Positions 24,181 to 42,948 of a stretch of DNA of 44,162 bases are shown here, piece by piece. This stretch comes from an uncultured Blautia sp. (GTDB lineage Bacteria; Bacillota; Clostridia; Lachnospirales; Lachnospiraceae), in contig CAMBAL010000014.1 in NCBI GenBank assembly GCA_945864225.1, forward strand, positions 1-44,162. Reading direction: 5' to 3'. The notes beneath the pieces were generated by a model. It made no database searches. It was not told where the DNA came from and was given only the letters and a program-made list of their open reading frames with translations. Each line of letters begins with the position of its first letter. Within the stretch, counting starts at the first letter, position 1. Both the position numbers and the translations under genes were made by a program.

Positions 24181-24495
24181 ATGGAAAATTATCAGATGGG
24201 CCGTTCTTCCGGCCGTCCTTACCGCACTACCTGCGGCATGAACAGAATGCCTTCCAACGAACGTATGACACACAGATCTTGTCAAAAAGCTGCCGAATGC
24301 AGCTGCCGGATGCCCGGCACAATATCACACGAAGAAGAAATGTATTCCCACCTGAAAAGCCTGCCGCCCGCCATGGCTTACGTCCCATGCCAGACTTTCT
24401 CGAAAACCTTTGATTTAAAACATGCACTTCATGTGGGCACAATTTTCCCGGAACTTTGCAGACCATTCTGCGGAAAGCGAGGTGTCCGAAAATGA
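24181..24495 (+). CDS. cotJA: Spore coat associated protein CotJA
   Basis: A 104-residue protein. The C-terminal half, AMAYVPCQTFSKTFDLKHAL then VGTIFPELCRPFCGKRG, is the CotJA domain; the N-terminal half is Cys/Met/Arg-rich and variable. It is a minor component of the spore coat assembled in the mother cell with CotJC. AAAGGA lies eight bases before the ATG. It overlaps cotJB by four bases. The usual W in YVPWQ is C here. Confidence 0.9.
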   Translation: MENYQMGRSSGRPYRTTCGMNRMPSNERMTHRSCQKAAECSCRMPGTISHEEEMYSHLKSLPPAMAYVPCQTFSKTFDLKHALHVGTIFPELCRPFCGKRGVRK

Positions 24496-24776
24496 TGTCC
24501 GAAAACAGATCTCTGAACCAAAAACAGCTTCTTCAGGAAATCAATGAAGTAAGCTTCGCGGTAAATGACATTCATCTCTTTCTCGATACCCACCCGTGTG
24601 ACAAACAGGCAATGGATTTTTTCAAAACTGTCGCTTCCAGGCGCCGGGAACTGATGACTCTGTATGCAAGAGAATTCGGTCCTCTTACCGTCGATGACGC
24701 CCTGGAAACAGACAGCGATACCTGGAAATGGATGGAGCAGCCGTTCCCATGGGAACAGGAAGGAGGCTTAAAATAA
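24492..24776 (+). CDS. cotJB: Spore coat protein CotJB
   Basis: A 94-residue protein with the CotJB domain: LLQEINEVSFAVNDIHLFLD then THPCDKQAMDFF, and a C-terminal WKWMEQPFPWE. It is required for coat incorporation of the CotJ set in Bacillus. The ATGA overlap with cotJA and GAGGTG upstream fix the start at 24492. It ends one base before the cotJC ATG. Confidence 0.92.
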   Translation: MMSENRSLNQKQLLQEINEVSFAVNDIHLFLDTHPCDKQAMDFFKTVASRRRELMTLYAREFGPLTVDDALETDSDTWKWMEQPFPWEQEGGLK

Positions 24777-24890
24777 ATGTGGAATTATGAAAAACGGCTT
24801 CAGTATCCTGTCAACATCAAAACCCCGAATGCCAGGCTGGCACAATATATTATGAGTCAGTATGGGGGGCCTTACCTCTGTAACCTATAA
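24777..24890 (+). CDS. cotJC: cotJC, 5' segment of a split gene
   Basis: Starts with MWNYEKRLQYPVNIKTP, the unmistakable N-terminus of CotJC, a spore-coat manganese-catalase-like protein. AGGAGG lies ten bases before the ATG. The homologous sequence runs for 31 codons to SQYGG, then passes into the element and stops after six foreign codons (TAA at 24888). The rest of the gene resumes at 33913. Joining base 24866 to 33913 gives one uninterrupted frame reading SQYGG-PDGEIGASMRYL. As it stands the gene is inactive unless the element is excised. Confidence 0.93.
   Translation: MWNYEKRLQYPVNIKTPNARLAQYIMSQYGGPYLCNL
24849..24888 (+). other. attL, left attachment site of the element
   Basis: Host sequence to the left meets the element across GGGGGG (24864-24869). 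The element side begins CCTTACCTCTGTAACCTAT (24870-24888), which is inverted-repeat related (16/19) to the sequence at attR. The inferred crossover dinucleotide is GG at 24867-24868. Confidence 0.8.
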
Positions 24891-24896
24891 CAGGAA

Positions 24897-24927
24897 CAGC
24901 CCGGCAAAAATTAATATTGCCAGGCTG
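24897..24927. other. Hairpin just inside the left end
   Basis: An 11-bp stem with one G-T pair (CAGCCTGGCAA / TTGCCGGGCTG on the minus strand) and a nine-base loop. No T-run follows on either strand. It lies past the stop of the decayed tail gene and may once have been its terminator. Confidence 0.55.
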
Positions 24928-25037
24928 TGAATCACTTTATCTTTTGTATTTTATACTTTTCTCTCATATAACGAGAATAACATGTATTTCACCGAATGTC
25001 TACTATTATTTGGTCACTATCTCGATAAAATTCGACA

Positions 25038-26273
25038 TCACGCATCCTTAATAATCGCATCGAATCCGGCCTTCTTCAGCTTGTCCACCAGTTCCTGAGC
25101 CTTGTCTTTGTTCTTGAACGCTCCGGCCTGTACATAATATTTTACGGCATCGGATTCCACTTTATTTGACGCTCCTGTCTCTGTTTTCGCAGAAATGTTC
25201 TTCCCACCAATGATTCCTTCAGTCGCCGTAATCTTTCCAGATATTGTCGCCCCTGTCGCAGTCAACGCTCCTGCACTGGTTACTATAAACTTCCCAGAAC
25301 CGATATTAATGCTTCCAGCGGTGACAGAGCCAAGGTTGGCACTGATGGCAGACAGGGATGTGACGTTGAGTTTGTCGGCGGTGATAGCCTTGGACGCAAT
25401 CTGCGTAGCGGTGATTGTCCCTGTGTAAATCTTGCCGCCATTGATATAGGTCTTATTGCTGTCGTAGCACAGATTTGCTAAGGCAGTATCGACGGCTGAA
25501 ATACTGGAATCCACATCTTCTGGAGCTGGTGTCCAGTCGGTGGCTTTGTTGCCTAGTTCGAGCTTTATTGTTCCACCTATTGAATATTTCCAATAAATTC
25601 GTATATACCCGCATTCGTCTGGAGATGTTTCAGTAATTGTTACTGGATTTCCCGTTCTTTTATAGTCATTACATGAAATATATGTTTTATCGGATTTGTA
25701 ATAAAAAAATCCAAGCCATTGTTCGGTTATTCCTCCATCTTTTCTCCAACATATCGTAAAAAATTCTCCACCTTTTAACTTTATAAAATCTGATGTTCTA
25801 AATTGCGAGTCTGTGGACATCATTGCGCCAGTTGATTGAGACGGATAACCATTCGTAAGCGTTTTACGGACAATCAAATTTCTTCCACCAACCTGCACGC
25901 TATCAATAATACTGCTCTTCGCGAAACTGCTAAGCCCGTCAAACGTAACAAGCCCTTGCAGATTAATCACATCTGCCACAAGGGTTGCTGTTCGATCGGT
26001 AAGGGTGAAGTCGGTCGAAGAAGTTCCGCTCTCCACAATCCAAGTGAACCTATCTGCGGTCTGTTCTGCTATTGTTTTGACGGATGCGATGGATGCGTCG
26101 GTGTCTTCTGGAGCGGGTGACCAATCTGTTGGTAAAGTGCCTTTCTCAAGCTTAAAATTTGAGATTGTAAGAGTGATTGGTGTTGTAAGAGCAATGCTTG
26201 ATCCGTGACGTAACGGACGAAATGCGAAATATGTATGAGTTCCAATCTGTTCACTGGTTTTTGCAGATAAGCC
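25038..26273 (-). pseudogene. Decayed phage tail protein fused to an endolysin-type SPOR tail
   Basis: The frame is open from just after a TAA at 26274 to 25038, but the only usable start is GTG at 26036 without a ribosome site. It encodes two DWTPAPED/DWSPAPED modules typical of siphophage minor tail or fibre proteins of Clostridia, then Ala/Thr/Ile-rich fibre repeats (TATEGIIGG). The last 35 residues, from KYYVQAGAFKNKDKAQELVD on, are an SPOR-like domain normally found at the C-terminus of phage amidase endolysins. This looks like a deletion joining tail and lysis genes and removing what lay between. Both parts are truncated. Confidence 0.75.
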
Positions 26274-26456
26274 TTACGGGTTGCCGCCCTGGGGCTCATT
26301 TTTTTCTTCCAGGACTCTCCAGCATCCTTTTAATCCGTTTCCGAGATGCATGTACAGGACTCCGACTTTTAATGTCTGGTTCTTGCAGATCGTTTTCTTT
26401 CTTTTTCCGCGGATCCCGGTGAAGAAATCTTCTTTGATAATTATGTAAGTGTGCAT
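26274..26456 (-). CDS. Small basic hypothetical protein (60 aa)
   Basis: Starts at ATG 26456 behind GGGGGTGA (six to nine bases) and reads MHTYIIIKEDFFTGIRGKRK. Basic, no membrane segment. It is in the same frame as the decayed tail gene, separated by the single TAA. I do not recognise a family. Located between phage tail and lysis-type genes, it may be a small phage accessory protein. Confidence 0.5.
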   Translation of the reverse strand: MHTYIIIKEDFFTGIRGKRKKTICKNQTLKVGVLYMHLGNGLKGCWRVLEEKNEPQGGNP

Positions 26457-26461
26457 TTTTT

Positions 26462-26785
26462 TCACCCCCAATCCTTCACTTTCAGATACAGGCATGCGAG
26501 CAGATTTCCATTTGTCGGCTTCTGTGCTGCAGTCATGTACTTATTCAGTGAATCCAAGTTTCCATATGTAGTTGCTTTCTCAAAAGCCGTTCTTATGCAT
26601 CTCTCCACCCTTGTCCAGGTCGTATCGTGCATTTCGGCAATTTTCTTATACAGAGCTGTGGTCCCGGATAAAATATAGGATTCATCCTGGGCATAAAACT
26701 CTATCGCGTCACAGATATAATGGAATCCGGATAAATTAGCCGGAACTCCCATCTCGATCAGTGCGTCAACGGTCTTCTTCCTCAT
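26462..26785 (-). CDS. Receiver-less Spo0A C-terminal DNA-binding domain protein
   Basis: A 107-residue protein that corresponds to the Spo0A effector domain alone. MGVPANLSGFHYICDAIEF matches the start of the Spo0A DNA-binding domain, TWTRVERCIRTAFEKA matches the helix-turn-helix (SRVERAIRHAIEVA in Bacillus Spo0A, from memory), and GNLDSLNKYM then KPTNGNLLACL match the end. The phosphoacceptor receiver domain is absent. It starts at ATG 26785, overlapping the preceding gene by 20 bases. Such proteins occur on Clostridial phages. It could bind 0A boxes and modulate sporulation or phage genes; this is inference. Confidence 0.82.
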   Translation of the reverse strand: MRKKTVDALIEMGVPANLSGFHYICDAIEFYAQDESYILSGTTALYKKIAEMHDTTWTRVERCIRTAFEKATTYGNLDSLNKYMTAAQKPTNGNLLACLYLKVKDWG

Positions 26786-26939
26786 TGGTTTTCTCCTTTT
26801 TGAAAAACAGCATGAACATGTAACATAAAATAGATGAGCCAAATGCGATCACAATCTTCTGTACCGTAGTTACTTCCCAGATTGACATGTAACTCAGGAT
26901 CCATCCGGCCATCAGGCTGTCGATTAAATCTCTTTTCAA
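26766..26939 (-). CDS. Small membrane protein, holin-like (57 aa)
   Basis: TTG start at 26939 with GGAGGG upstream. The protein MKRDLIDSLMAGWILSYMSI and following residues has one clear membrane helix (IVIAFGSSILCYMFMLFF) and a shorter hydrophobic stretch before it, ending in a charged tail (KKEKTNEEEDR). Size, charge and position in the lysis region suggest a holin or spanin-like remnant, without family proof. It overlaps the Spo0A-like gene. Confidence 0.5.
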   Translation of the reverse strand: MKRDLIDSLMAGWILSYMSIWEVTTVQKIVIAFGSSILCYMFMLFFKKEKTNEEEDR

Positions 26940-26960
26940 GGCTTGTCCCTCCTTCCCGCC

Positions 26961-27113
26961 TTAGCTGGCGGTCTTCTGTACTTTTGTTCCAATCGCCTTC
27001 CCTGCTCTATTCATTGCTATAGCAACCATCTCAGCAAATCTTTCCTCTGGAATCTTTTCCTGTCCGACCCACTGCCCGTTGATTTTCACCATGCTTACTA
27101 TATTTAATTGCAT
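26961..27113 (-). CDS. Small hypothetical protein (50 aa)
   Basis: ATG at 27113 behind GGAGGTGA (five to six bases), an excellent ribosome site. Reads MQLNIVSMVKINGQWVGQEK and ends KVQKTAS. Probably one short beta hairpin and a helix (EERFAEMVAIAMNRAGKAIG). Small proteins of this kind precede the holin gene in many Clostridial prophages; no function is assigned. Confidence 0.55.
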   Translation of the reverse strand: MQLNIVSMVKINGQWVGQEKIPEERFAEMVAIAMNRAGKAIGTKVQKTAS

Positions 27114-27176
27114 CAAATCACCTCCCGATATGATATGACCAACTGTTTGTACCGGTTACTCCCGTTTACGGTAGTA

Positions 27177-27205
27177 TTGTTATTTTGTTCTGAATCTCCT
27201 ATAAT
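27177..27205 (+). promoter_or_regulatory. Promoter of the 27256 gene
   Basis: TTGTTA, 17-base spacer, TATAAT, 50 bases upstream of the ATG on the plus strand. Confidence 0.55.
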
Positions 27206-27255
27206 CTAAGTACAGGCACTGCCATGCCGAGTACATTAAGAAGAAAGGGGTTTCT

Positions 27256-27621
27256 ATGGATAACGATTTTACAGTTTTAGCCTCGTACATTACCGCGTTG
27301 GCTGCCATTATCGCTCCAACTATTACCACTCTTATCATTTCTGTTAAGGACTATAAAATCTCAAAAATGAACCACACTATCGAAGAACGCTTGAAACTTT
27401 GTGAAAGTTTTTCCGATTCATATTCCAAGTGTCAATATGGCAATGATAAAGAAGGATTTGCCTTGGCTTTTTATAAATCATCTTTTAAATTAGCCGCTGT
27501 CTGCAAACGCAGATCTGTTCGGCGTTCTCTTTTCTCACTTGCTAATATTGTTCTTCAGGACGGTGCCTCAAAATCAACAGATAAATTATATGAACGATGC
27601 ATCCGTTTACTCTCAAAATAG
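27256..27621 (+). CDS. Membrane-anchored hypothetical protein (121 aa)
   Basis: An N-terminal membrane helix (VLASYITALAAIIAPTITTL, about residues 7-26) is followed by a cytoplasmic, basic, helical domain. AAAGGGG lies before the ATG and a good promoter upstream, so it is expressed alone, opposite to its neighbours. Such lone membrane genes in prophages can act in superinfection exclusion, but nothing in the sequence proves that. Confidence 0.6.
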   Translation: MDNDFTVLASYITALAAIIAPTITTLIISVKDYKISKMNHTIEERLKLCESFSDSYSKCQYGNDKEGFALAFYKSSFKLAAVCKRRSVRRSLFSLANIVLQDGASKSTDKLYERCIRLLSK

Positions 27622-27784
27622 TTTTAAAAATACAGGTGCATATCCAAAAAACGCTATTATTTCGCCAATTAATAATAAGCTTTTGTATAATGTTCTGTTT
27701 TCACTTACAGCACTAACAACAATTGATGATATGCGTAGGCTCGTACCAACAAAACAACAAGCTAAGCAGAAGAATTCCATAACT

Positions 27785-28249
27785 TCATCTCCCTCTGTAT
27801 TCTTCGTAGTTTATTTCTAATTTATCGCACTCTTCCGGATGACCAGTTTCCAGATTCGCATTAAACAATTTGCATAATGGCCACCCATCTGGCCCCGGAA
27901 GAGTTGTCATCACGGGTTCCGTTACATTCTTCCTGTTAATCATCAAAATTCCCTTATCAAGATCTACCTCTAACGAACGGATTCCTATATCATTATCCAT
28001 CGTTTTATCAAACGACATGTCGCCTCTGTCATTTGTGGTATACTCTGAATCTCCTTTTCTCTTCGCTCCATGCTTTGAAACAAAGCAATACTCTCCCAAT
28101 GTATCTTTGGCCTTTTCCAAAACGATCGTCGACTCATCGTAGGACAATCCTTCTTCGGAGAACTTATTGATAATAAATTCGGTAAGTTCTCCAATCTTTT
28201 TTCCATCAAAAATCTCTCCATTGTTCATCATAATGCTTCCAAATTCCAT
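27785..28249 (-). CDS. Hypothetical phage protein (154 aa)
   Basis: The ATG at 28249 has GGAGGTGG upstream; a longer frame to 28273 is unlikely. Acidic, mostly helical N-terminal half (IGELTEFIINKFSEEGLSYD) and a C-terminal half with RKNVTEPVMTTLPGPDGWPL. Not recognised. It lies downstream of the antirepressor and probably shares its transcript. The 163 bases between it and the gene ending at 27621 hold nothing I can identify. Confidence 0.55.
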   Translation of the reverse strand: MEFGSIMMNNGEIFDGKKIGELTEFIINKFSEEGLSYDESTIVLEKAKDTLGEYCFVSKHGAKRKGDSEYTTNDRGDMSFDKTMDNDIGIRSLEVDLDKGILMINRKNVTEPVMTTLPGPDGWPLCKLFNANLETGHPEECDKLEINYEEYRGR

Positions 28250-28309
28250 GCTTCCCACCTCCTCACTCCGCAAAATACTCTACTGGAACATCGAAACATG
28301 TGCTTGAAT

Positions 28310-28891
28310 CTATTCCAGAAAGCTAATCTGCTCATATTCTGGAATCTTTACAAAGTCATCTGGGAGTCGAATGCCAAACTGTTCCGATACCATTTTGAAC
28401 GCTTCACAAATCTTCCATGGCGCCGATCCCTGTTTCTCCATTCGCTTGTCCATTTCCTTGTTGAATGAAGCTATCTCGCCAAGAGATGTGGCTTTTGTTG
28501 CATATACTTTTTCCCTAGTCAGTTTCTTTGCACCATTTTCAATTCCTACGAAATAGTTTCTAGCAGCTTCACCTTTCTGGTTTTTCTGCATCATAGAAAG
28601 CTTCTTTGCGAAGCTAGCGGTAAGACATGCATCCTGACGTTCCTTACTAAAGTTATCTCCCGACTCGTACTTCAGTACGAACCGGAAATAATCAACATTT
28701 TCCTCTGCGAACTGATTCTCGATAATGTTTTTCTTAAACCACTTTGAATAATTACTTGGATTCAGTTCCAAAAATCCATACAACTTTGTAGCTGTTGTCA
28801 TTCCCTGTTCATCTACACCAAGGGCAATCTCAATCGGTGTCTGTTTGCTGGTATCTGGTGTACTGAATACTTCGTTAAAAATATCATTCAT
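28310..28891 (-). CDS. AntA/AntB-type phage antirepressor
   Basis: A 193-residue protein whose N-terminal 115 residues carry the AntA/AntB antirepressor domain: ATKLYGFLELNPSNYSKWFK, then EENVDYFRF and FAKKLSMMQKNQKGEAARNY. These proteins relieve prophage repression by binding the repressor or its operators. The C-terminal part is helical. The gene is read divergently from the repressor, from a strong promoter in the shared 140-base region. Confidence 0.85.
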   Translation of the reverse strand: MNDIFNEVFSTPDTSKQTPIEIALGVDEQGMTTATKLYGFLELNPSNYSKWFKKNIIENQFAEENVDYFRFVLKYESGDNFSKERQDACLTASFAKKLSMMQKNQKGEAARNYFVGIENGAKKLTREKVYATKATSLGEIASFNKEMDKRMEKQGSAPWKICEAFKMVSEQFGIRLPDDFVKIPEYEQISFLE

Positions 28892-28934
28892 TTAAATAGT
28901 CATTCCTTTCTTGTTGAATTTAATTCACTTCTTC

Positions 28935-28963
28935 AATATAGTATTATGATGAACTTGTGTCAA
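28935..28963 (-). promoter_or_regulatory. Antirepressor promoter in the lysogeny switch
   Basis: Minus strand: TTGACA, 17-base spacer, TATATT, about 45 bases before the antirepressor start. The -35 lies in the partial dyad TGTGTCAACAC, a candidate repressor operator. Confidence 0.65.
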
Positions 28964-28980
28964 CACTTTTTATAATATTG

Positions 28981-29009
28981 TTGATTTTTTTTCACATATA
29001 TGTTATAGT
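28981..29009 (+). promoter_or_regulatory. Repressor promoter in the lysogeny switch
   Basis: TTGATT, 17-base spacer, TATAGT, 23 bases before the repressor ATG. The two divergent -35 boxes are only 17 bases apart, so one bound repressor could control both. Confidence 0.65.
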
Positions 29010-29031
29010 GTTCCCAGGAGGTGACAACCAA

Positions 29032-29565
29032 ATGATAGAATTATACAAAAATATAAAAGAATTGCGCGAACAAAAAGGATTATCTCAAGATGAACTTGCG
29101 AAACTAACAGGATATACGAGCCGATCTTCTATCGCAAAAATTGAAAAAGGCGAAGTTGATCTTACTCGTAGTAAAATAATAGCTTTTGCAAAAGCTCTAG
29201 ATACTACACCTACACAATTAATGGGATGGGAAAAAAAAGAATGGGATAAAGAATCTCAACAATTTGAGGACAAAATTAATGCTCTCTATTATCAATTACG
29301 TGGATTAGGATGGACATATGAATGGTCTAGTGATGAAGAAAGATATATTCTCTCAAATGGAATTACTTCTATCAAAATTACTCCCGATGAATACAGTTCA
29401 TTGGTAGAGCAATCAGAAGAATTCTGTCGAAAGATGCTTCAGAAACTAATTTTAAAATCAAGTTCCCTGCTTGCCGCCGCCCATGAACGTACTGATATAG
29501 AAGTAACTGAAGATATGAGAAAACATGATGATGACATCATGATGGATGATTCTGAATGGGAATGA
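29032..29565 (+). CDS. XRE-family phage repressor (CI-like)
   Basis: A 177-residue protein with an N-terminal helix-turn-helix (about residues 8-65: LREQKGLSQDELAKLTG, SRSSIAKIEKGEVDL, IIAFAKALDTTPTQLMGW). The C-terminal half is helical and acidic, with no Ser-Lys autopeptidase motif, so control would run through the adjacent ImmA-like protease. Start at ATG 29032 behind AGGAGGTGA; the frame upstream lies in the promoter. It overlaps the next gene by 20 bases. The 5' half is notably A+T-rich. Confidence 0.88.
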   Translation: MIELYKNIKELREQKGLSQDELAKLTGYTSRSSIAKIEKGEVDLTRSKIIAFAKALDTTPTQLMGWEKKEWDKESQQFEDKINALYYQLRGLGWTYEWSSDEERYILSNGITSIKITPDEYSSLVEQSEEFCRKMLQKLILKSSSLLAAAHERTDIEVTEDMRKHDDDIMMDDSEWE

Positions 29566-30058
29566 TTTTTTGACCTACGAAGAACTATTAGATACCGCAG
29601 ACAATGAGGGGCTGACCGTAATGGAAAAGCCCCTGACCGGAAGTGATGGGCGAATATATAAAAATCGTATAGCCATCCGTTCAGGCATTGATACGACCGT
29701 AGAAAAATCCTGCGTTCTGGCAGAAGAGCTCGGACACTACTATACTTCTTCAGGTGATATTCTTGATCAATCCGACACTATGAACCGCAAGCAGGAATAC
29801 CGTGCCAGATTATACGGATACAATCTAAAAGTCGGATTAATGGGAATTATTAACTCTTATGAATCCGGTGCACGGAACTTATATGAAATGGCTGAATATC
29901 TGGATTTCGCAGAAGAGTATCTGAAAGAAGCCATTGATTGTTATAAATCAAAATATGGTGAATTTGTAAAATTAGATAACTATATCATTTACTTTATTCC
30001 GTATTTTGCTGTTATGAAAATAGCTACCAAGCCAATACTCTATACAGAAAGGACGTGA
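29546..30058 (+). CDS. ImmA/IrrE family metallopeptidase
   Basis: A 170-residue protein of the prophage ImmA group. The metal site is CVLAEELGHYYTSSGDI (about residues 52-68): the second histidine and glutamates are present while the first position of HExxH is Glu-shifted, as is usual for this phage subgroup. ImmA in ICEBs1 cleaves its repressor to induce excision. It is translationally coupled to the repressor by a 20-base overlap. Confidence 0.85.
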   Translation: MILNGNDFLTYEELLDTADNEGLTVMEKPLTGSDGRIYKNRIAIRSGIDTTVEKSCVLAEELGHYYTSSGDILDQSDTMNRKQEYRARLYGYNLKVGLMGIINSYESGARNLYEMAEYLDFAEEYLKEAIDCYKSKYGEFVKLDNYIIYFIPYFAVMKIATKPILYTERT

Positions 30059-30062
30059 TACC

Positions 30063-30608
30063 ATGCCATTACCAAAGGACAAAACCTATACATCCGAAGA
30101 CTACTGGAACCTTCCGGAAGGCCAGCGTGCAGAACTGATCGACGGCCGGCTTTATGATATGGCACCGCCAAGCTATGTGCATCAGAAATTAATAAGTGCC
30201 TTCACTGTAATTTTCTCAAACCATATCAAATCAAAAGGTGGATTCTGTGATGTCATCCCCGCTCCATTCGCCGTGAACCTCACTGCAAACGACGAAACTT
30301 ATGTGGAGCCAGATATCAGTATCATCTGCGATAAAAGTAAAATAACAGATCACAGATGCAATGGAGCGCCAGATTTCATTGTTGAAGTAGTGTCGCCGAG
30401 CAGCCGCCGGATGGATTACAATATAAAAAATGCCAAATATGCAGAATCCGGAGTTCGAGAATACTGGATCGTAGATCCAGCAAAAGAGCGCACTACTGTT
30501 TACCGTTATGAAGAAGACGCAGCTCCCATGATCATTCCTTTTGACCAACCTGTGGTAGTTGGAATCTATGGTGATCTGCAGATAATAATCTCAGATTTAC
30601 TCAAATAA
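30063..30608 (+). CDS. Uma2 family (DUF820) putative restriction-type endonuclease
   Basis: A 181-residue protein with the PD-(D/E)xK fold of the Uma2 family: AELIDGRLYDMAPPSYVHQ, EPDISIICD, DFIVEVVSPSSRRMDYNIKN and YAESGVREYWIVDP. D, E and K of the nuclease core are present (EPD, IVEVV, then K in the NIKNAKY block). Biological role is unproven for the family, which is often linked to mobile elements. AAAGGACGTGATACC precedes the ATG; it follows the protease gene by four bases and probably shares its message. Confidence 0.85.
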   Translation: MPLPKDKTYTSEDYWNLPEGQRAELIDGRLYDMAPPSYVHQKLISAFTVIFSNHIKSKGGFCDVIPAPFAVNLTANDETYVEPDISIICDKSKITDHRCNGAPDFIVEVVSPSSRRMDYNIKNAKYAESGVREYWIVDPAKERTTVYRYEEDAAPMIIPFDQPVVVGIYGDLQIIISDLLK

Positions 30609-30694
30609 AGAAAAACCGCCCCTGCGCCAACAGGAACGGCTTTACATAGATGTAACCTGTCAACCCAAAGGATGCATGGTCACACTACTTCAAC
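30605..30694 (-). ncRNA. Candidate small RNA upstream of the recombinase
   Basis: On the minus strand TGTTCA, a 17-base spacer and TATAAT (30701-30729) precede about 90 bases ending in an imperfect hairpin, GCCGTTCCTG with CAGGGGCGG, followed by TTTTTCTTT. No open frame of useful length lies inside. Promoter and terminator are motif-level evidence only; the hairpin may just be a terminator region for the plus-strand Uma2 gene. Confidence 0.3.
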
Positions 30695-30733
30695 ACCAGT
30701 ATTATACCATACATCCTTCCAAATGAACAGGGT

Positions 30734-30763
30734 GTATTTTTTATACCCAAAATTTCATAAAAT
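30734..30763 (+). promoter_or_regulatory. Possible SigE-like promoter of the serine recombinase
   Basis: GTATTTT, a 15-base spacer and CATAAAAT; the same CATAAAAT octamer occurs at the cotJ promoter. The -10 is only 14 bases before the ATG, so a normal start point would cut into the ribosome site AAAGGGTG. This is a tentative call. Confidence 0.25.
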
Positions 30764-30777
30764 GAAAGGGTGATATT

Positions 30778-32220
30778 ATGCCAAAACAATCTTCTGTCCC
30801 CGATTACCGCACCGGAGCACTTTATATCAGGGTGTCTACTGACAAACAGGAGGAGTTATCTCCCGATGCCCAGAAACGTCTTCTGCTGGATTATGCAAAG
30901 AAGAATAAAATTCTGGTCAAGCCGGAGCATATTTTTATGGAAAATGGCATTTCCGGACGAAAAGCTGACAAACGTCCGGAATTTCAGCGCATGATTTCTC
31001 TGGCCAAGTCCAGGCCTTCCCCCTTCAACATGATCCTTCTCTGGAAGTTCAGCCGTTTCGCCAGGAACCAGGAAGAATCCATCGTGTACAAATCCATGCT
31101 CCGCAAACAGTGCAATGTGGATGTAGTCAGCATCACAGAGCCACTGATTGACGGTCCATTCGGCAGTCTGATCGAGCGCATCATTGAATGGATGGATGAG
31201 TACTATTCCATCAATCTGTCCGGAGAGGTTGTCCGTGGAATGACCGAAAAAGCCATGCGCGGCGGATACCAGGCTGCTCCTCCATTGGGATACAAAGCTG
31301 TAGGCGGAGGAAATCCGTTTGTCGTGGATCCGGATGAAGCACGTACGGTAAAATATATATTTGAACAGTACTGCCACTATCACAAGGAACCAACTGCAAT
31401 CGCCAGACAGCTCAACGACATGGGAATCCGCACCAAACGCGGAAGCCTGTTTGAAAAGCGCAATATCGCTTATATACTGCAAAATCGATTTTACATCGGA
31501 GAGCTGGAATGGAATGGGATCAAAACACAAGGGACCCATGAGACATTTATCTCCGAAGAGCTGTTCCGGGAAGCCCAAAACACCTACACAGAAACATTCA
31601 GGCCTCAAAAACGAAGAAGTGTATCCACCTGCAGGCATTGGCTTTCCGGGCTGGTAAAATGTTCTGTCTGCGGTTCCAGCCTGTCATATAATCACTGCAG
31701 GTATCCTTTTTTTCAATGCTGGAAATATTCCAAAGGAATGCATAAAGAAAGCTCCGGCATATCTGAAAAGAATCTGATCTCCGGTGTGCTGGAATATTTT
31801 GAAAAAATCCTGAACGGAGCAGAATTCACGTTTTCTTATATTCCTCCCGAATCAGATGAGGAAACTTATGAAGAAACGTATTATCAAATAGAACTGGAGA
31901 AGCTGTCTCAACGCGAACAGCGCATCAGATATGCTTACGAATCCGGAGTGGATTCTCTGGAAGAATATAAAGAAAACAAAACCCGCCTTCTCGAAGAACG
32001 GAAACGTCTGGAATCGCTCCTGGCAGAAATTGCACAAAAAGAAGAACCTCCAAAAGTAACCAAAGATCACTATTTGTCAAAAGTCCGCACCGTATATGAC
32101 ATTCTCAAAGATGATGATATTTCTTACGAAATAAAAGGAACCTTCATCCGATCTGTTGTTGAAGAAATCATTTATGATAAAAAAACGAATACCCTCACTT
32201 TTCACTTATACAGTTCCTGA
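30778..32220 (+). CDS. Large serine recombinase (SpoIVCA-like integrase/excisionase)
   Basis: A 480-residue site-specific recombinase. The resolvase domain comes first (about residues 12-150: ALYIRVSTDKQEE with the nucleophile serine near residue 20, then LLWKFSRFARNQEES). The Recombinase domain (about 165-270, GYQAAPPLGYKAV, TAIARQLNDMGIRTKRG) follows, then a zinc ribbon (KCSVCGSSLSYNHC to FFQCWKY) and a coiled-coil region (about 375-430). It belongs to the same broad class as SpoIVCA, which excises skin from sigK. It should act on attL (24867) and attR (33913). A separate directionality factor is not recognised. Confidence 0.95.
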   Translation: MPKQSSVPDYRTGALYIRVSTDKQEELSPDAQKRLLLDYAKKNKILVKPEHIFMENGISGRKADKRPEFQRMISLAKSRPSPFNMILLWKFSRFARNQEESIVYKSMLRKQCNVDVVSITEPLIDGPFGSLIERIIEWMDEYYSINLSGEVVRGMTEKAMRGGYQAAPPLGYKAVGGGNPFVVDPDEARTVKYIFEQYCHYHKEPTAIARQLNDMGIRTKRGSLFEKRNIAYILQNRFYIGELEWNGIKTQGTHETFISEELFREAQNTYTETFRPQKRRSVSTCRHWLSGLVKCSVCGSSLSYNHCRYPFFQCWKYSKGMHKESSGISEKNLISGVLEYFEKILNGAEFTFSYIPPESDEETYEETYYQIELEKLSQREQRIRYAYESGVDSLEEYKENKTRLLEERKRLESLLAEIAQKEEPPKVTKDHYLSKVRTVYDILKDDDISYEIKGTFIRSVVEEIIYDKKTNTLTFHLYSS

Positions 32221-32242
32221 CAAGCTGCGATTCCCATCCTAC

Positions 32243-33112
32243 TTACATTCCGAGTCTCTGCGCGATTTCTCTCGCTGCCGGTGTGTTGGCCACGCCTCCT
32301 TCTCCGGTTTCCCGAAGAGAAACATGCATGGACTCTCCGATTTCTTTCATAGCATCGATTACCTGATCCGGCGGAATGCGGCTAGTAATTCCTGCAAGAG
32401 CCATATCCGCACAGGAAAGCGCATTGACTGCCCCGATCACATTACGTTTCACGCAGGGTACTTCCACCAGCCCTGCGACCGGATCACAGACAAGTCCCAG
32501 AAGATTCTTCAAAGCCATTGCCGCAGCCTGAATGATCTGACTGGAATCTCCTCCGCGAAGGTGCACCAGTGCTCCCGCTGCCATAGAAGAAGCTGCCCCG
32601 ATCTCCGCCTGACAGCCGCCTGCTGCCCCGGCGATAAAGGCACGGGCAGCGATCACCTGGCCGATTCCTGCTGCCGTATAAAGTGCCTCCAGAACCTTTT
32701 CATCCGGAATCTTTTTTTCTCTGTAAAGAGGAATCAGCACAGCCGGAAGAACACCGCATGCCCCTGCAGTAGGTGCCGCCACAATTCTTTTCATGCACGC
32801 ATTGGACTCTCCCATCTGAAGTGCCTGAGAGATTACTTTTGCCATAAAATCTCCGCAGAGCGGTTCCTGACTTGTCCTGTATGTTTCCATCTGCGCTCCC
32901 ATCCCGCCCACAAGACGGCTCTTGGAAAGCATTGTTCCTTCGTACTGATCACTGGCCTCCAGCATAGCGCTCCACATTTTTTTCATGGTGTCCACAGACT
33001 CTTCTTCTGTCACAGACCGATCATTCATATCATCCAGAAGAATCACTTTCCAAAAAGGAATACTTCGGCTGTTTCCTGTTTCTACAATTTCCTGCAAAGA
33101 CTGATATGCCAT
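32243..33112 (-). CDS. sdaAA: L-serine ammonia-lyase, iron-sulfur dependent, alpha subunit
   Basis: A 289-residue subunit converting L-serine to pyruvate and ammonia. Cluster cysteines lie in AAPTAGACGVLPAV and in LVCDPVAGLVEVPCVKRN, the standard set. AFIAGAAGGCQAEIGAASSM is a second conserved block. It begins one base after the beta-subunit stop. It faces the recombinase gene tail to tail with 22 bases between them. It lies within the element, between recombinase and attR, so it would be removed from the chromosome on excision. Confidence 0.95.
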   Translation of the reverse strand: MAYQSLQEIVETGNSRSIPFWKVILLDDMNDRSVTEEESVDTMKKMWSAMLEASDQYEGTMLSKSRLVGGMGAQMETYRTSQEPLCGDFMAKVISQALQMGESNACMKRIVAAPTAGACGVLPAVLIPLYREKKIPDEKVLEALYTAAGIGQVIAARAFIAGAAGGCQAEIGAASSMAAGALVHLRGGDSSQIIQAAAMALKNLLGLVCDPVAGLVEVPCVKRNVIGAVNALSCADMALAGITSRIPPDQVIDAMKEIGESMHVSLRETGEGGVANTPAAREIAQRLGM

Positions 33113-33781
33113 TTATGCTTCCTCCCTGCTCATAAGATAGGTCACTTTTAAAATACCTTCCATTGCTTCCAGCCGTTCCATAACATCTGCAGGAATCGGC
33201 TGATCCGACTCGATCACCATAACCGCATTTCCGCCTTTTTTGTCACGGTGAAGGTTCAGCGTTGCTATGTTTACGGAATGCTGGGTCAGAAGCGTGGTAA
33301 CTTCTGCCACATATCCAGGCTTGTCCTGATTGCGGACGATCAGAGTCGGACTCTCACAGGCACAGTTTACCTCAATTCCATCCAGTTTATTCAGCATAAC
33401 TCTTCCGCCTCCAAGGGAAGAAGCCTGCACCTTCAGCTCCTTGCCGCTGGTTCCTCTTACCTCCAGAAAGGCAGTATTGGGATGCGCACCGGAAATCTGC
33501 ATATCATGAAAAGAAAACTTTACATGTTCTTTTTCCGCTTCTTCAAAACTCCCGGGAATACGCATATCGTCCGGCTGCATTCCCAGAAGACCTGCCATCA
33601 GTGCCCGATCCGTTCCATGTCCTCTTCCTGTGGCCGCAAAAGAGCCGTGAAGTCCGATCTTCGCTTCTGCCACCGGGCTTCCCAGCAGAACCCTTGTAAT
33701 ATATCCGATCCGCACAGCCCCCGCCGTGTGGGAACTGGACGGACCTACCATAATCGGTCCCAAAATATCAAAGATACTCAT
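33113..33781 (-). CDS. sdaAB: L-serine ammonia-lyase, iron-sulfur dependent, beta subunit
   Basis: A 222-residue subunit. The N-terminal domain holds FDILGPIMVGPSSSHTAGAV and GSFAATGRGHGTDRAL. The C-terminal ACT domain (about residues 148-220) is usually regulatory. CCGGAGG lies before the ATG. Base composition and codon use look like the host housekeeping genes rather than the A+T-rich phage part, suggesting it came from a close relative or was captured from the host. Confidence 0.95.
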   Translation of the reverse strand: MSIFDILGPIMVGPSSSHTAGAVRIGYITRVLLGSPVAEAKIGLHGSFAATGRGHGTDRALMAGLLGMQPDDMRIPGSFEEAEKEHVKFSFHDMQISGAHPNTAFLEVRGTSGKELKVQASSLGGGRVMLNKLDGIEVNCACESPTLIVRNQDKPGYVAEVTTLLTQHSVNIATLNLHRDKKGGNAVMVIESDQPIPADVMERLEAMEGILKVTYLMSREEA

Positions 33782-33792
33782 AAATCTATTCC

Positions 33793-33838
33793 TCCGGGGA
33801 AATTTTTGTTGTATTTAGTATACCAAATCTTCCCCGGA
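33793..33838 (-). promoter_or_regulatory. sda promoter enclosed by an inverted repeat
   Basis: On the minus strand an extended -10 (TGG then TATACT, 33817-33822) lies between perfect 9-base inverted arms, TCCGGGGAA and TTCCCCGGA. The downstream arm contains the sda ribosome site. The arms could be a dimeric regulator site flanking the start point. Confidence 0.45.
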
Positions 33839-33892
33839 AATACTATCCGCAAATGGCTGTTCCTTTGCTTTTCTCTGCTGCCAGTCCATGCG

Positions 33893-33930
33893 ATAGGTTA
33901 CGGGGATAAGGGGGACCGGATGGAGAAATT
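33893..33930 (+). other. attR, right attachment site of the element
   Basis: The element side is ATAGGTTACGGGGATAAGG (33893-33911); the core is GGGGG (33910-33914) and host cotJC resumes with ACCGGATGGAG. The inferred crossover dinucleotide is GG at 33913-33914, giving an excised circle of 9,046 bp. Confidence 0.8.
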
Positions 33931-34245
33931 GGCGCTTCCATGCGTTACCTTTCCCAGCGATTTACCATGCCAAACCGTATGGCTTCGGCAGTACTCAACG
34001 ATGTAGGTACAGAAGAACTTGCTCACCTCGAGCTGGTCTCCACCATCGTTCACCAGCTTACCAGGAATCTTTCCATGGAAGAAATTGAGAAATCCGGTTT
34101 TGGTCCATATTATATCGACCATACCGTAGGCATCTGGCCGCAGGCTGCAGGAGGAGTTCCCTTTAATGCCTGCGAATTCCAGAGCAAAGGAGATCCGATT
34201 ACCGATTTGTTTGAAAATCTTGCAGCAGATGGTGCGTTCCTGTAA
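33913..34245 (+). CDS. cotJC: cotJC, 3' segment of a split gene
   Basis: Without a start of its own, the frame encodes the continuation of CotJC: PDGEIGASMRYLSQRFTMPN, the metal-ligand block GTEELAHLELVSTIVHQLTR, then GGVPFNACEFQSKGDPITDL. An internal ATG at 33940 has no ribosome site. It ends LFENLAADGAFL then TAA. Bacillus CotJC is 189 residues and continues with AAEEKAR and a REREIVH block that supply the last metal ligands; about 50 residues are absent here. The rejoined gene would encode 140 residues. Confidence 0.88.
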   Translation, partial: GPDGEIGASMRYLSQRFTMPNRMASAVLNDVGTEELAHLELVSTIVHQLTRNLSMEEIEKSGFGPYYIDHTVGIWPQAAGGVPFNACEFQSKGDPITDLFENLAADGAFL

Positions 34246-34293
34246 AAACAAAAAATCCTGACCGGAAAGAACTTGTCTTCTCAGTCAGGATTT
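34244..34293 (-). terminator. Terminator of the thiamine transporter operon
   Basis: Minus strand: AAATCCTGAC and GTCAGGATTT enclose a 21-base loop and are followed by TTTTGTTTTT. It overlaps the cotJC stop and, read the other way, may also end cotJC transcripts weakly. Confidence 0.75.
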
Positions 34294-34322
34294 AAAATTA
34301 CCGGATTCATCTTTTCCGAAAC

Positions 34323-35060
34323 TTATCCGATTTTTTCCAGTATCAGTCTCTTATACTGCAGGAATTCTTCCGTCAGATTAAAGTCTGCTCTGCGAGGTTT
34401 TGGCTCTCTGATCACAATTTCCTGTGTGATTTCTCCAGGTTTGCCTGTAAGCAGATAAATCCGGTCTGACAGAAGAATCGCCTCATCAATATCATGAGTA
34501 ATAAACAGTGTAGACAGATGAATCTGCTCCATAATATTCAGATACCAGGTATGCATACTGCTCTTTGTAATAGTATCCAGCGCAGAAAAAGGTTCATCCA
34601 GAAGTGCCACATTTCTGGAAAACATGTAGGTACGCATCAGAGCAGCTCTCTGACGCATACCGCCGGAAAGCTGGCGTGGATACTTTTTTTCCGTACCTTC
34701 CAGACCAAACTCCGCAAAATAGGGAGCTGCCTGTTTTCTTGCTTCTTTTTTGCTCATTCCCTTAATAACCAGGGGAAGCGCCACATTATCCTCAATTGTA
34801 CGATATGGAAGCAGCAGATCTTTCTGGAGCATATAACTGATTTTTCCCGGTTTTCCTGTAATTTCTTCACCATCAAGGAATACCTGTCCTTCATCAGGTA
34901 TCGTTAGCCCTGAAATCACATTAAACAGCGTGGTTTTCCCCCCGCCGCTCACACCCAGAAGACATACCAGTTCTCCCTCATGAAGAGTCACATTGACATT
35001 CTGTATGATTTTCCTGCCGTCAAAGGATTTGCTGACATTTTTTACGATTAGTTCTGACAT
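34323..35060 (-). CDS. ABC transporter ATP-binding protein (thiamine-precursor type)
   Basis: A 245-residue ATPase. Walker A is LLGVSGGGKTTLFN, Q-loop MLQKDLLLPY, signature QLSGGMRQRAALMR, Walker B VALLDEPFSALD and H-loop ITHDIDEA. It belongs to the nitrate/taurine/hydroxymethylpyrimidine import family. Last gene of the operon behind the TPP riboswitch, which identifies the substrate class as thiamine or its pyrimidine precursor. Confidence 0.92.
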   Translation of the reverse strand: MSELIVKNVSKSFDGRKIIQNVNVTLHEGELVCLLGVSGGGKTTLFNVISGLTIPDEGQVFLDGEEITGKPGKISYMLQKDLLLPYRTIEDNVALPLVIKGMSKKEARKQAAPYFAEFGLEGTEKKYPRQLSGGMRQRAALMRTYMFSRNVALLDEPFSALDTITKSSMHTWYLNIMEQIHLSTLFITHDIDEAILLSDRIYLLTGKPGEITQEIVIREPKPRRADFNLTEEFLQYKRLILEKIG

Positions 35061-35085
35061 CTCTCAAAACCTTTCTGATTCGAGA

Positions 35086-36084
35086 TTATTCCGGAAGGTA
35101 ATCATTGGAAAATCCGGTATTCTCCGGAATTTCATCTTCTACCAGTTCATTCTCATTCAGCCACTGATAAAAACCGTTCCATCTTTCCGGATCAATATAT
35201 CCCCACTGTTCTACCTCAGCTTTATACTGTTCTGACAGATAATTCTGACTTGCCACAGTAAGCTCCTGATCAAGCTCAGGAGCAGCTTCACAGAGAATTT
35301 CTGCAGCTTCTTCCGGATTTTCGATTGCATATTCATATCCATCTCTCAGTGCTGTCAGGAACTTCTTTGCAGTTTCCGGTTCACTGGCAAGGAAATCATT
35401 ATTTGCGATTACAACAGGTGTATAATAGTCAAATACCGGGTTAATATCTTTAAATGCAAAATAATCTGTCTCCAGACCTTCCAGTTCCATCTTAACGCCT
35501 GCCCATCCGTAGAAAATCCAGATGGCATCCACAGATTTTGACTGCAGTGCGGAAACTTCATCGGTAACAGTACTTGGAATCATTTCTACCTTGCTGTAAT
35601 CACCGCCGTCCTCTTCTACTACGTTCTGAATCATTGCTTTTTCCACAGGACTGTCCCAGGTCGCATATTTCTTTCCTTCCATTCCCCTGGGAGTATCCAT
35701 TCCCTCTCCTTTTCGCGATACAATTCCTGAGGTATTATGCTGGATCAATGCAGCTACAGCAGTAGTCGGAAGAACATTTTCCCCTGCCACCCCAGGCGCC
35801 ATCGTATCCTGGAAAGAAACACCGAACTGTGCCTTTCCGGATGCTACCAGAGCATCTGCACCATCTTCCGGCGGCTGGACAATTTCTACTTCCAGGCCCT
35901 GTTCTTCAAAAAATCCCTGACTCTCAGCCACATAGAGTCCTGTATGATTCGTATTCGGAGTCCAGTCCAGAACAAATGTGATTTTCTCGGTCTCTGCTTC
36001 TTCCGCATAAACCGGAACTGCACTCATCATGGAAACGGTCATTGCTGCAGCCATTCCTGCTGCCATTATTTTCTTTTTATTCAT
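35086..36084 (-). CDS. ABC transporter substrate-binding protein, NMT1/THI5-like (ThiY type)
   Basis: A 332-residue secreted binding protein. The signal peptide (KKIMAAGMAAAMTVSMMSAVPVYA) ends in an AxA-type site and has no lipobox cysteine, odd for a Gram-positive binding protein. The mature start KITFVLDWTPNTNHTGLYVA is the signature of the THI5/ThiY pyrimidine-precursor family, and GKAQFGVSFQDTMAP follows. It overlaps the permease gene by eight bases. Likely ligand is N-formyl-aminopyrimidine or hydroxymethylpyrimidine, by family and riboswitch context. Confidence 0.9.
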   Translation of the reverse strand: MNKKKIMAAGMAAAMTVSMMSAVPVYAEEAETEKITFVLDWTPNTNHTGLYVAESQGFFEEQGLEVEIVQPPEDGADALVASGKAQFGVSFQDTMAPGVAGENVLPTTAVAALIQHNTSGIVSRKGEGMDTPRGMEGKKYATWDSPVEKAMIQNVVEEDGGDYSKVEMIPSTVTDEVSALQSKSVDAIWIFYGWAGVKMELEGLETDYFAFKDINPVFDYYTPVVIANNDFLASEPETAKKFLTALRDGYEYAIENPEEAAEILCEAAPELDQELTVASQNYLSEQYKAEVEQWGYIDPERWNGFYQWLNENELVEDEIPENTGFSNDYLPE

Positions 36085-36847
36085 TTTTTGTATCCTCCCA
36101 TGGCATACATTTTTTCTGTAAAAAATCCACCAGCTTCATCAGAAGCAGACTGATCAGTGAAATTAAAAAAATTACTGCGAACATTTTGTCAAAGGAAAAT
36201 GCCTTTTTAACCCTGGTCATATAAACTCCCAGTCCTGAAAATCCACCAAGCCACTCAGAAATCACCGCACCTACGACAGAATATGCAACAGAGATCCGAA
36301 GGCTTGCAAAAAACTGTCCCATAGACCCCGGAAGCTTCACATAACGGAAAATCTGAAATTCCGAAGCTCCCATGGAACGCAGCAGATTCATGGTATCCTT
36401 ATCTGCACTCCGGAATCCATCCAAAACTCCCACCGTAACAGGGAAGAATGTGGCAATTACGATCAGAATGATTTTCGGCAGCATTTCATAACCGAACCAT
36501 AATACCAGAAGCGGTGCCACAGCCACTGTCGGAATCGTCTGAGTCAGCACGACAAGCGGATAAAATGCCTTATAAAGCACCTCAAACCTGTCCATCAGAA
36601 CTGCCATAACAAAACCAAATGAAACACCGCAGGCAAGTCCGATAAACGCTTCCAGAAGGGTGACTTTTGCATTTTCCATCAGAAGCGGAAACTCCTGGAT
36701 AAATGCTTTTACTACCTGTACCGGAGACGGAAGCATGTAGCCCGGAACAATTCCAAGAGCCGATACCGTCTGCCAGATTATCAGGAGAATCAGAATCGCA
36801 GCAATCGTATTAATCTTCGAGGTGATGCTTTGAAACTTTTTTCTCAA
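36077..36847 (-). CDS. ABC transporter permease (ThiX type)
   Basis: A 256-residue permease with about six membrane helices. The ABC-2 coupling loop EFQIFRYVKLPGSMGQFFASL carries the usual EAA-type motif. Start is TTG at 36847, nine bases after AGGAGAGG, inside the end of the preceding gene (38-base overlap). It works with the ATPase and binding protein of the same operon. Confidence 0.9.
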   Translation of the reverse strand: MRKKFQSITSKINTIAAILILLIIWQTVSALGIVPGYMLPSPVQVVKAFIQEFPLLMENAKVTLLEAFIGLACGVSFGFVMAVLMDRFEVLYKAFYPLVVLTQTIPTVAVAPLLVLWFGYEMLPKIILIVIATFFPVTVGVLDGFRSADKDTMNLLRSMGASEFQIFRYVKLPGSMGQFFASLRISVAYSVVGAVISEWLGGFSGLGVYMTRVKKAFSFDKMFAVIFLISLISLLLMKLVDFLQKKCMPWEDTKNE

Positions 36848-37112
36848 TGGTGAGCACCTCTCCTTCCGGACGATAGGTGACTTTGATATAAGCTGCTACA
36901 GAAGGAGCTCCTGCTTTGATTGCGATGTGCTGGCATTCTTTTACGATGTCCATCAATTCATCATAATCTCCTTCAATTGCAGTCTCAAAAGGTCCCACAT
37001 AACAGTTCAGCCCTGTGCTTTTGATGTAGGCAATCACCTCATCTACCACACGGATCAGTTCTTCATCATCTTTTGCTTCAGGAAGTACCTGAATTGCTAC
37101 ACTTGCGTTCAT
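36810..37112 (-). CDS. Thiamine-binding MTH1187/YkoF-like protein
   Basis: A 100-residue ferredoxin-like-fold protein (MNASVAIQVLPEAKDDEELI, then GLNCYVGPFETAIEGDYDEL). This family binds thiamine or hydroxymethylpyrimidine and is commonly the first gene of such transporter operons. The ATG at 37112 has AAAGGAGG upstream; the longer frame to 37274 crosses the terminator and is rejected. Confidence 0.9.
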   Translation of the reverse strand: MNASVAIQVLPEAKDDEELIRVVDEVIAYIKSTGLNCYVGPFETAIEGDYDELMDIVKECQHIAIKAGAPSVAAYIKVTYRPEGEVLTIEKKVSKHHLED

Positions 37113-37205
37113 TTTGTTTCCTCCTTTTCTTTGCCCGCGAAAAAAACACTGCCCGGAGGGCTTTTTATATCGCAGGAAAATGCAGAACAGTTCCTGTTCC
37201 ATACA

Positions 37206-37242
37206 ATAAAAAAGCTCCTGCAAGGCAGATACCGCGGGAGCT
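37206..37242 (-). terminator. Riboswitch-controlled terminator
   Basis: Minus strand: AGCTCC and GGAGCT around an 18-base loop followed by TTTTTTATTG, located between the TPP aptamer and the first gene. This indicates control by premature termination when thiamine diphosphate is bound. Confidence 0.8.
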
Positions 37243-37267
37243 GATTCATCCATTACAGAGCTTCTGA

Positions 37268-37362
37268 CGCTCATCCCTCCGCTGGCATTACCCAGATCAG
37301 GTTGTAGGGTCCGATACGAATACGGTATCTATCTCAGCCGGTCTTCACCAGCACCCCTGTAA
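37268..37362 (-). ncRNA. TPP riboswitch (THI element)
   Basis: Read on the minus strand: ACAGGGGTGCTGG, GGCTGAGATAGATACC, GACCCTACAACCTGATCTGG and TAATGCCAGCGGAGGGA are the conserved blocks of the thiamine diphosphate aptamer in the right order. It controls the thiamine-precursor transporter operon at 34323-37112. Confidence 0.95.
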
Positions 37363-37380
37363 ATGATTATTTGATTAACT

Positions 37381-37408
37381 ACTTTACCACGACTGGACAA
37401 AATGTCAA
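37381..37408 (-). promoter_or_regulatory. Promoter of the TPP riboswitch operon
   Basis: Minus strand: TTGACA, 16-base spacer, TAAAGT, about 20 bases before the aptamer. Confidence 0.6.
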
Positions 37409-37420
37409 GCACATTTTCAC

Positions 37421-37539
37421 AAAGTGCGTTTGACAGCACATTTCCCGGAGAGTGTTTGATATTTCTCAGAGTGTGTTTGAAACTTTCCCAAAGTGTGCTT
37501 GAAACTTTCCCAGAGTGTGTTTGAAACTTGCTTTCCGAC
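37421..37539 (+). repeat. Degenerate tandem array of GTGTTTGAAA units
   Basis: Five units lie head to tail at 37421, 37449, 37468, 37490 and 37512. The third and fourth are 22 bp and differ at only two positions (AGAGTGTGTTTGAAACTTTC type). The last ends in TTGCTTTCCGAC, the same loop as the inverted copy at 16467. It lies between the thioesterase stop and the transporter promoter. Confidence 0.8.
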
Positions 37540-37548
37540 AGATGTGTG

Positions 37549-38067: not shown

Positions 38068-38106
38068 ATATTTCACCCTGTTTTCTTTTACATATCTATC
38101 TTTTTT

Positions 38107-38129
38107 TCTTAAAGCGTGTTTGAACATTC
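38107..38129 (+). repeat. Single GTGTTTGAA repeat copy
   Basis: TTAAAGCGTGTTTGAACATTC matches the dispersed unit seen at 16467, 37421-37539 and 43052 over its first half. It lies just upstream of the thioesterase gene. Confidence 0.5.
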
Positions 38130-38233
38130 ATTCCAGACATCTGCATCCTGCTCCTTTTTTTATTTCTCACGCCCTTATAATTATGCCTCCCGATGCAGTC
38201 TGTATGTTATGTTGTTATCAACCAGAAACATCC

Positions 38234-39016: not shown

Positions 39017-39049
39017 TGTTTCCTCACCCTCCAGTACATAGTTATTTTC

Positions 39050-42865: not shown

Positions 42866-42919
42866 GATATTCCCCTGCGGCTGATGCCGGATTCTCTCTT
42901 CTTAATATACAACGATTTT

Positions 42920-42948
42920 ATCATACACATTTCGGTGAAAAACGTCAA
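42920..42948 (-). promoter_or_regulatory. Promoter of the LRR-VWA-MoxR operon
   Basis: Minus strand: TTGACG, 17-base spacer, TATGAT, about 55 bases upstream of the LRR gene start. Confidence 0.6.

Follow-up and report, generated by a model that had tools for sequence, protein, structure and literature searches.

How is a spore coat protein made from a gene that lies in pieces? The question is raised by a 44,162-nucleotide stretch of DNA from an uncultured Blautia sp. (the window, which is the entire contig C14 of assembly G000; 2.67 Mb, 115 contigs, 84% complete), in which the coat gene cotJC, with cotJA and then cotJB directly upstream (Pfam families Mn_catalase, CotJA and CotJB, respectively), is interrupted by two elements, A and C, each encoding a serine recombinase. 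The best explanation is that several skin-like elements reside in this one gene and that each is, with high probability, excised in the mother cell; it builds on insertions, in-frame joins, recombinases that cluster by site, an element C of long standing and gene pieces kept under purifying selection, and what we infer from these are the excision, its timing and the cell type.

The first-pass annotation of the window had placed codons 1–31 of cotJC at 24777–24869, found the frame again at 33913 and joined 24866 to 33913 in frame (SQYGG/PDGEIGASMRYL), all of which holds. The 9,046-bp insertion so delimited (element A) is real and precise, its site (site A) being uninterrupted in G032, a genome of the same genus; in the survey of relatives that had been proposed as a check, G032, which is devoid of element A, has a continuous cotJC at this exact junction and is a natural empty site. 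The large serine recombinase within the element is likewise confirmed, as an uninterrupted frame (30778–32220) with Resolvase, Recombinase and zinc-ribbon domains. What had been taken for the rest of cotJC (33913–34245) does resume the frame at 33913, but it is a middle piece only, which ends at about 34229; its reading frame runs about five codons into element C and then meets a stop. The split as originally seen (insertion, join, recombinase) thus needs the amendment that the continuation is itself cut by a second element, and excision of element A alone, contrary to what had been supposed, would not restore cotJC, since this second element interrupts the gene downstream. A skin-like system, as proposed, remains the best explanation in view of the recurrent split, the clustering by site, the in-frame pieces under purifying selection and the empty site, but element A is not the sole interruption.

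A whole-genome profile search located three cotJC pieces in G000 (profile positions 1–32, 30–150 and 148–198), the third on contig C76. Joined from 24866 to 33913 and from 34229 to C76:4013, they give, in frame, a CotJC of 215 amino acids (aa), whose alignment with the intact G046 CotJC covers 207 residues at 90.3% identity and has no gap. Next to the recombinase of element A is an attachment site that combines a core of short direct repeats with inverted arms, and the two ends of the element together make up an imperfect palindrome (matching at 16 of 20 arm positions, where random positions of the same element average 11 with a maximum of 14), as would be expected of the attP site of a serine integrase. 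Anatomy, empty site and preserved frames fit conservative insertion by a serine integrase and later excision.

Element C starts in the window and continues on C76. One G032 contig aligns to the right part of the window and, 13 bp on, to C76 from base 1, so that C14 and C76 are neighbors and element C of G000 measures about 14.0 kb; in G032 the element lies on a single contig. That element C is host DNA rearranged into place in G000 alone was considered and rejected, because G032 has it collinear, contiguous and at the same cotJC site. Three of its cargo genes differ between G000 and G032 by a synonymous divergence (dS) of 0.66–0.94, the host genes ftsW, garK and cotJB by one of 0.91–1.07, and element C is therefore most likely older than the split of the two lineages. 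Its recombinase (recombinase 2) is only distantly similar to recombinase 1 of element A and belongs to a different clade; between G000 and G032 it has diverged more than the cargo (dS 1.48; ratio of nonsynonymous to synonymous divergence, dN/dS, 0.12), for which we offer no explanation. Among ten element C proteins scanned against Pfam no phage family was found, the cargo consisting instead of ABC transport genes, a thioesterase, a ZIP transporter, AAA and VWA-like genes, and also a thiamine-binding-like and a leucine-rich-repeat protein. Within 64 genomes of the genus, the transport operon (window 43190–44155, C76 3–1461) has a close relative in G032 only (96% identity), the next best being 57% identical (G055).

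Elements A (9.0 kb) and C (about 14 kb) are independent serine-recombinase elements at two attachment sites inside cotJC, and according to the proposed course of events the gene would stay in three pieces during growth and in the forespore lineage. In the mother cell, where cotJ is expressed in Bacillus subtilis, the recombinase of each element, together with a small directionality factor, would cut its own element out at the core to give a joined gene encoding the 215-aa manganese-catalase-like coat protein. The elements would persist since they are retained in the genome of the forespore, whereas the mother cell is lost, and the host would keep the recombinases because CotJC cannot be made without them. 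Such excision would explain the conserved pieces, the recombinases that outlast phage genes and the tolerance of several elements in one gene.

In the genus, 43 of the 64 genomes (G000 included) match the cotJC family, and 19 of these 43 have pieces flanking a site on both sides. In the family Lachnospiraceae (completeness of at least 90% requested) the match is found in 190 of 298 genomes, G000 among them; the 63 whose top match was weaker than about 1e-41 were searched again for splits, and in 52 of them pieces flank a site on either side (14 at A, 22 at B, 10 at C, 6 multiple or unclear), the remaining 11 being one-sided, weak or intact. The 52 of 190 are a lower bound, as the search for split copies covered the 63 weaker matches, and G000 lies outside the 52. 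The gene is cut at about residue 31 (A), 62–66 (B) or 135 (C) and, more rarely, near residue 178 (D; three distinct loci). Two cotJC paralogs exist in the genus (L005–L012 versus L013–L031), and L170 (G112:C68) contains a near-identical duplicate of the part behind site B (2164–2583 and 5704–6123, about 3.1 kb apart).

Several sites may be occupied at once: A and C in G000, L057 and G111, B and C in G002, A and B in G037 and further genomes. Three sites are occupied in the Roseburia assembly behind L080, where the last cotJC piece was missing from view, as well as in the L103 genome. Blautia parvula NBRC 113351 (NZ_CP084061.1, a record titled complete genome; see Table 1) offers the most clear-cut example. 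In its second gap a recombinase lies at each of two cotJC edges, and since their scores (434 and 316 bits) fall in the ranges of two groups of B-type recombinases, a tiny piece between two B elements was sought. A single match was found in the genome (67,108–67,142), on the right strand and inside the gap, and none with the reversed control; its arm GAGGTTATCAATGG and the one at the opposite end of the second B element are exact reverse complements. The cotJC gene of B. parvula therefore consists of five pieces, one of a few codons, and is cut by four elements of about 6.8, 20.4, 80.6 and 22.8 kb (the record taken as circular); irregular arms make the right end of the first B element less certain. 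The joined CotJC has 210 residues (84.5% identity, one gap). A search for the same pattern in G366, G037 and G371 returned nothing, so that among these four genomes the few-codon piece was found in B. parvula alone.

The recombinases are sorted by site. From 151 loci encoding a relative of recombinase 1, 80 were retained, 52 of which contain a cotJC piece. On a tree of 134 recombinases, the site labels require fewer changes than the shuffled mean (A, 6 versus 44.0; B, 8 versus 24.9; C, 2 versus 9.8; D, 1 versus 3.0), and for all four labels none of 500 shuffles was as low; the program flagged long branches meeting in this tree, the deep joins of which are unsure. The B-type recombinases form two groups, which fits two nearby crossover points, close to residues 62 and 65. 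The 3′ end of the recombinase gene points toward the nearby cotJC piece in 97 of 106 cases (some loci being counted twice). At 40 site-A loci, recombinase and cotJC distances correlate (r 0.34, p 0.0002); the site-A recombinases appear to have been partly inherited together with cotJC and partly moved.

A clade related to recombinase 1 splits another gene, presumably sleC or similar; this name is our assumption from the order of domains, with no hit behind it (PG_binding is above the cut-off, CarboxypepD_reg-like and SpoIID-like regions are below). Part of the SleC-like gene is present in 22 of 28 loci not beside cotJC; both halves were found in three (L075, L094, L101) and L073 looks doubly split, the other loci listed being L092, L090, L097, L070 and L301. 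As 22 of the 28 hold such parts, the recombinases labelled "nocot" were dropped as a negative control. In IMG/VR, relatives of recombinase 1 occupy 75 loci, 14 with SleC-like and 8 with cotJC pieces, and those of recombinase 2 occupy 9 loci, 6 with cotJC pieces; prophage-sized contigs and small elements therefore have targets in common.

Such viral contigs of full size with related recombinases would agree with excision that is random or phage-induced in a fraction of all cells, as in a lysogen, rather than part of mother-cell development, as would the excised circles of the yin element described at all time points (PMC10747680). Where a single locus contains both ends of an element (46 elements, with two pairs that each represent one contig retrieved twice), sizes range from 1.6 to 17.4 kb, and some others exceed 39 kb. 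Elements of 2–4 kb without phage genes retain the recombinase frame; the smallest of A type (2.1 kb, G039) has a repressor-like gene, a 51-aa open reading frame (ORF) and a recombinase frame. This retention, and the need for all elements of a multi-element gene to leave in the same cell, speak against random or induced excision, which we regard as unlikely, although it survives better than any other alternative.

Less probable still is the view that cotJC is a dispensable safe harbor, where phage insertion is harmless and the split copies are dead. Split genomes are many, some with an intact paralog, and fixed insertion sites are frequent for phages of the large-serine-recombinase type. Yet stops are absent from four segments of the split genes (0/72, 0/96, 0/83 and 0/78; segments are ungapped matches, which frameshifted pieces would escape), and pieces severed from the start codon are constrained. 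Median dN/dS is 0.08–0.19 for split versus 0.04–0.10 for intact genes (low-scoring segments were excluded, which left 26 different sequences for the last segment, and the intact set contains paralogs). Short pieces between two elements remain open: 16 different ones of 27 codons have a ratio of nonsynonymous to synonymous differences (pN/pS) of 0.27, and seven between an element and site C one of 0.23, both ratios being raw and synonymous differences near saturation. The strongest test is the comparison of G000 with G032, which have element C in common; the coat segment beyond element C differs by 1 nonsynonymous and 11 synonymous changes, and the three segments after site A combined by 6 and 45. 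A dead gene was rejected on the open pieces, the low dN/dS and the 1 versus 11 changes; judged by these substitutions, the pieces are under purifying selection.

That the pieces were misplaced in a fragmented metagenome assembly might be thought from the 115 contigs of G000 and from piece 3 lying on another contig; it is very improbable, as G032 has element C on one contig and the same architecture is found in the B. parvula chromosome and in the isolates B. schinkii DSM 10518 and B. massiliensis GD8 (genus members by inferred identity), and for the family an artefact is already refuted. Separate translation of the pieces with assembly of the protein, or RNA splicing, either without DNA excision, found no supporting point and is hardly credible in face of the few-codon piece of B. 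parvula, intervening DNA of up to about 80 kb, and serine recombinases with attP-like ends.

For the directionality factors of the proposed mother-cell excision, two small ORFs are candidates. Relatives of the 51-aa ORF of element A occur in 14 distinct loci including the window (E 0.003 or better), most of A type and two not beside cotJC; no match was found in PHROG. In 10 of the 11 C-type loci (e.g., L004:2228–2347), among them G000, an ORF of about 55 aa directly precedes the recombinase gene; with queries drawn from two of these ten, it was found in no other locus type at E 0.1. Known directionality factors are of similar size (72 and 53 aa; PMC10747680). Among A elements, 16 of 20 have an attP-like palindrome that scores above the maximum for random positions of the same element, as do 8 of 20 B elements and 3 of 5 of type C. 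A CATA box is present 20–32 bp before the start of 24 of 56 A-type recombinases, 12 of 24 not beside cotJC, 5 of 27 of B type and 0 of 10 of C type (48 of 534 control ORFs); these boxes lie in a terminator-like, T-rich context, and the control upstream of cotJA scored weakly. A sporulation-sigma promoter before recombinase 1 (GTATTTTT, 14 bp, CATAAAAT 22 bp before the start) was not relied on, its T-runs being terminator-like and some other recombinases having TATAAT-like boxes there, those of C type none.

Several of these observations weigh against developmental excision. Sporulation-type promoters before the recombinases are not established, with none before those of C type; the ends of B and C elements are less clear than those of A; some recombinase frames are short (278–409 aa) and may be broken; constraint on split genes is a little weaker than on their intact counterparts; and several genomes with a split cotJC also carry an intact paralog, in which case the split copy may be dispensable. 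Furthermore, excision itself, the stage at which it would occur, its confinement to the mother cell and the assignment of directionality factors are all inferred.

The description of element A as a decayed prophage was partly right: a tail-protein fragment, antirepressor, repressor, metalloprotease and Uma2 protein agree with it, but L-serine dehydratase genes are also carried. Phage regulators and the tail fragment are retained; a close phage relative was rejected, the top phage record being just 38.6% identical. That the dehydratase is the sole copy of the host was also rejected, as a second SDH_alpha gene exists. The same dehydratase variant resides in element A of G000 (window 32243–33781), between site-B cotJC pieces in G029 (C38:35725–36588) and G056 (C8:18668–19531), and upstream of cotJA in G032 (C86:77593–78456).

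Table 1. Features of the cotJC locus in the window (positions without prefix), on contig C76 of the same assembly and in B. parvula
Feature	Position	Strand	Basis or remark
cotJA	24181..24495	+	Pfam CotJA
cotJB	24495..24776	+	Pfam CotJB
cotJC piece 1 (codons 1-30; codon 31 in shared G-run)	24777..24866	+	Mn_catalase profile 1-32; in-frame join
Element A left core copy (G-run)	24864..24869	+	G032 empty site
Element A, 9,046 bp	24867..33912	.	continuous cotJC in G032
51-aa ORF, candidate directionality factor of A-type elements	26964..27116	-	relatives in 14 distinct loci
AntA/AntB-type antirepressor	28310..28891	-	
XRE-type repressor-like protein	29032..29565	+	
Phage-type metalloprotease	29546..30058	+	PHROG 87; Pfam Peptidase_M78 slightly under cut-off
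Uma2-family protein	30063..30608	+	
Large serine recombinase 1 (site A type)	30778..32220	+	Pfam domains; tree
L-serine dehydratase alpha and beta genes	32243..33781	-	TIGR00718, TIGR00719 above cut-off
Element A right core copy (G-run)	33910..33914	+	
cotJC piece 2 (codons 31 to about 135)	33913..34229	+	Mn_catalase profile; in-frame join
Element C left core copy (CAGA)	34226..34229	+	right copy C76 4009-4012
Element C left part	34230..44162	.	continues C76 1-4012; total about 14.0 kb
Recombinase 2 (serine recombinase, element C)	C76 2376-3977		
cotJC piece 3 (last 80 codons)	C76 from 4013		adjoins recombinase 2
B. parvula cotJC pieces	94,583-94,485; 87,652-87,554; 6,233,564-6,233,343; from 6,210,531	one strand	

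Skin in sigK, SP-beta in spsM, vfbin in spoVFB, gin in gerE and yin in yabG are likewise serine-recombinase elements splitting a mother-cell gene in frame, and their cargo ranges, like that of the cotJC elements, from prophage to non-phage, as in gin (PMC5595907, PMC10747680, PMC6957869). As in a sporulation gene-intervening element, a mobile element splits cotJC, the parts join in frame, and the empty site is present in G032. Skin proper inserts in sigK, so the window element, the target of which is cotJC, is not skin proper; the cotJC elements further differ from the known ones in that there are several per gene, one recombinase clade per site and a family-wide distribution, and in that their excision is so far a prediction. 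Suzuki and colleagues argued, in general terms, that the need for gene reconstitution preserves small intervening elements (PMC6957869). In heterocyst-forming cyanobacteria several elements are found in 10 of 87 interrupted genes, with four in nifD of Rivularia (PMC4874684); the elements in nifD, fdxN, hupL, nifK and others resemble the cotJC case in multi-element genes and a terminal cell type, but differ in phylum, cell type and target genes, and both recombinases of the window locus score below the cut-off of the XisF equivalog model NF041201 (57.7 and 106 versus 375 bits). The comK prophage of Listeria (active lysogeny) also splits a host gene that excision restores (PMC6957869), but it is reversible, acts in a non-terminal cell, and is a single element in a non-sporulation gene. 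Interrupted sporulation genes reported are sigK, spsM, spoVFB, spoVR, gerE and yabG, with kamA in addition (PMC5595907, PMC10747680, PMC6957869, PMC4874684, PMC10083194, PMC11222575); in the portions of these six articles drawn on, no interruption of cotJC or sleC is reported, a scope that excludes supplementary material such as Figure S5 of PMC6957869, preprints and the majority of subscription journals, and the terms cotJ and cotJC do not occur in the first three. In Clostridioides difficile R20291, prophage phi027 adjoins a CotJC-like gene, with no interruption as described (PMC11222575).

So far, developmental excision in spore formers has, in the literature covered, meant one element per gene and a handful of genes; here a single coat gene is targeted repeatedly, by several elements together and in genomes from a major gut-bacterial family. 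In genomes split in this way, automated gene prediction will give wrong counts of sporulation genes; the elements also provide a large set of recombinases whose target sites are known, and strains from culture collections make the central claim testable by simple PCR. The locus is a natural system for asking whether the recombinases act in a set sequence, what makes one gene so frequent a target and how elements with host-like cargo persist. For the Lachnospiraceae as a whole we consider it probable that the mother cell runs a genome programme in which cotJC and the SleC-like gene are each cut at several conserved sites by distantly related, site-dedicated elements (up to four in one gene, with a piece of a few codons between two); coat protein would then arise only after coordinated independent excisions, a multi-input DNA gate present in more than one quarter of the sampled cotJC-bearing genomes of the family.

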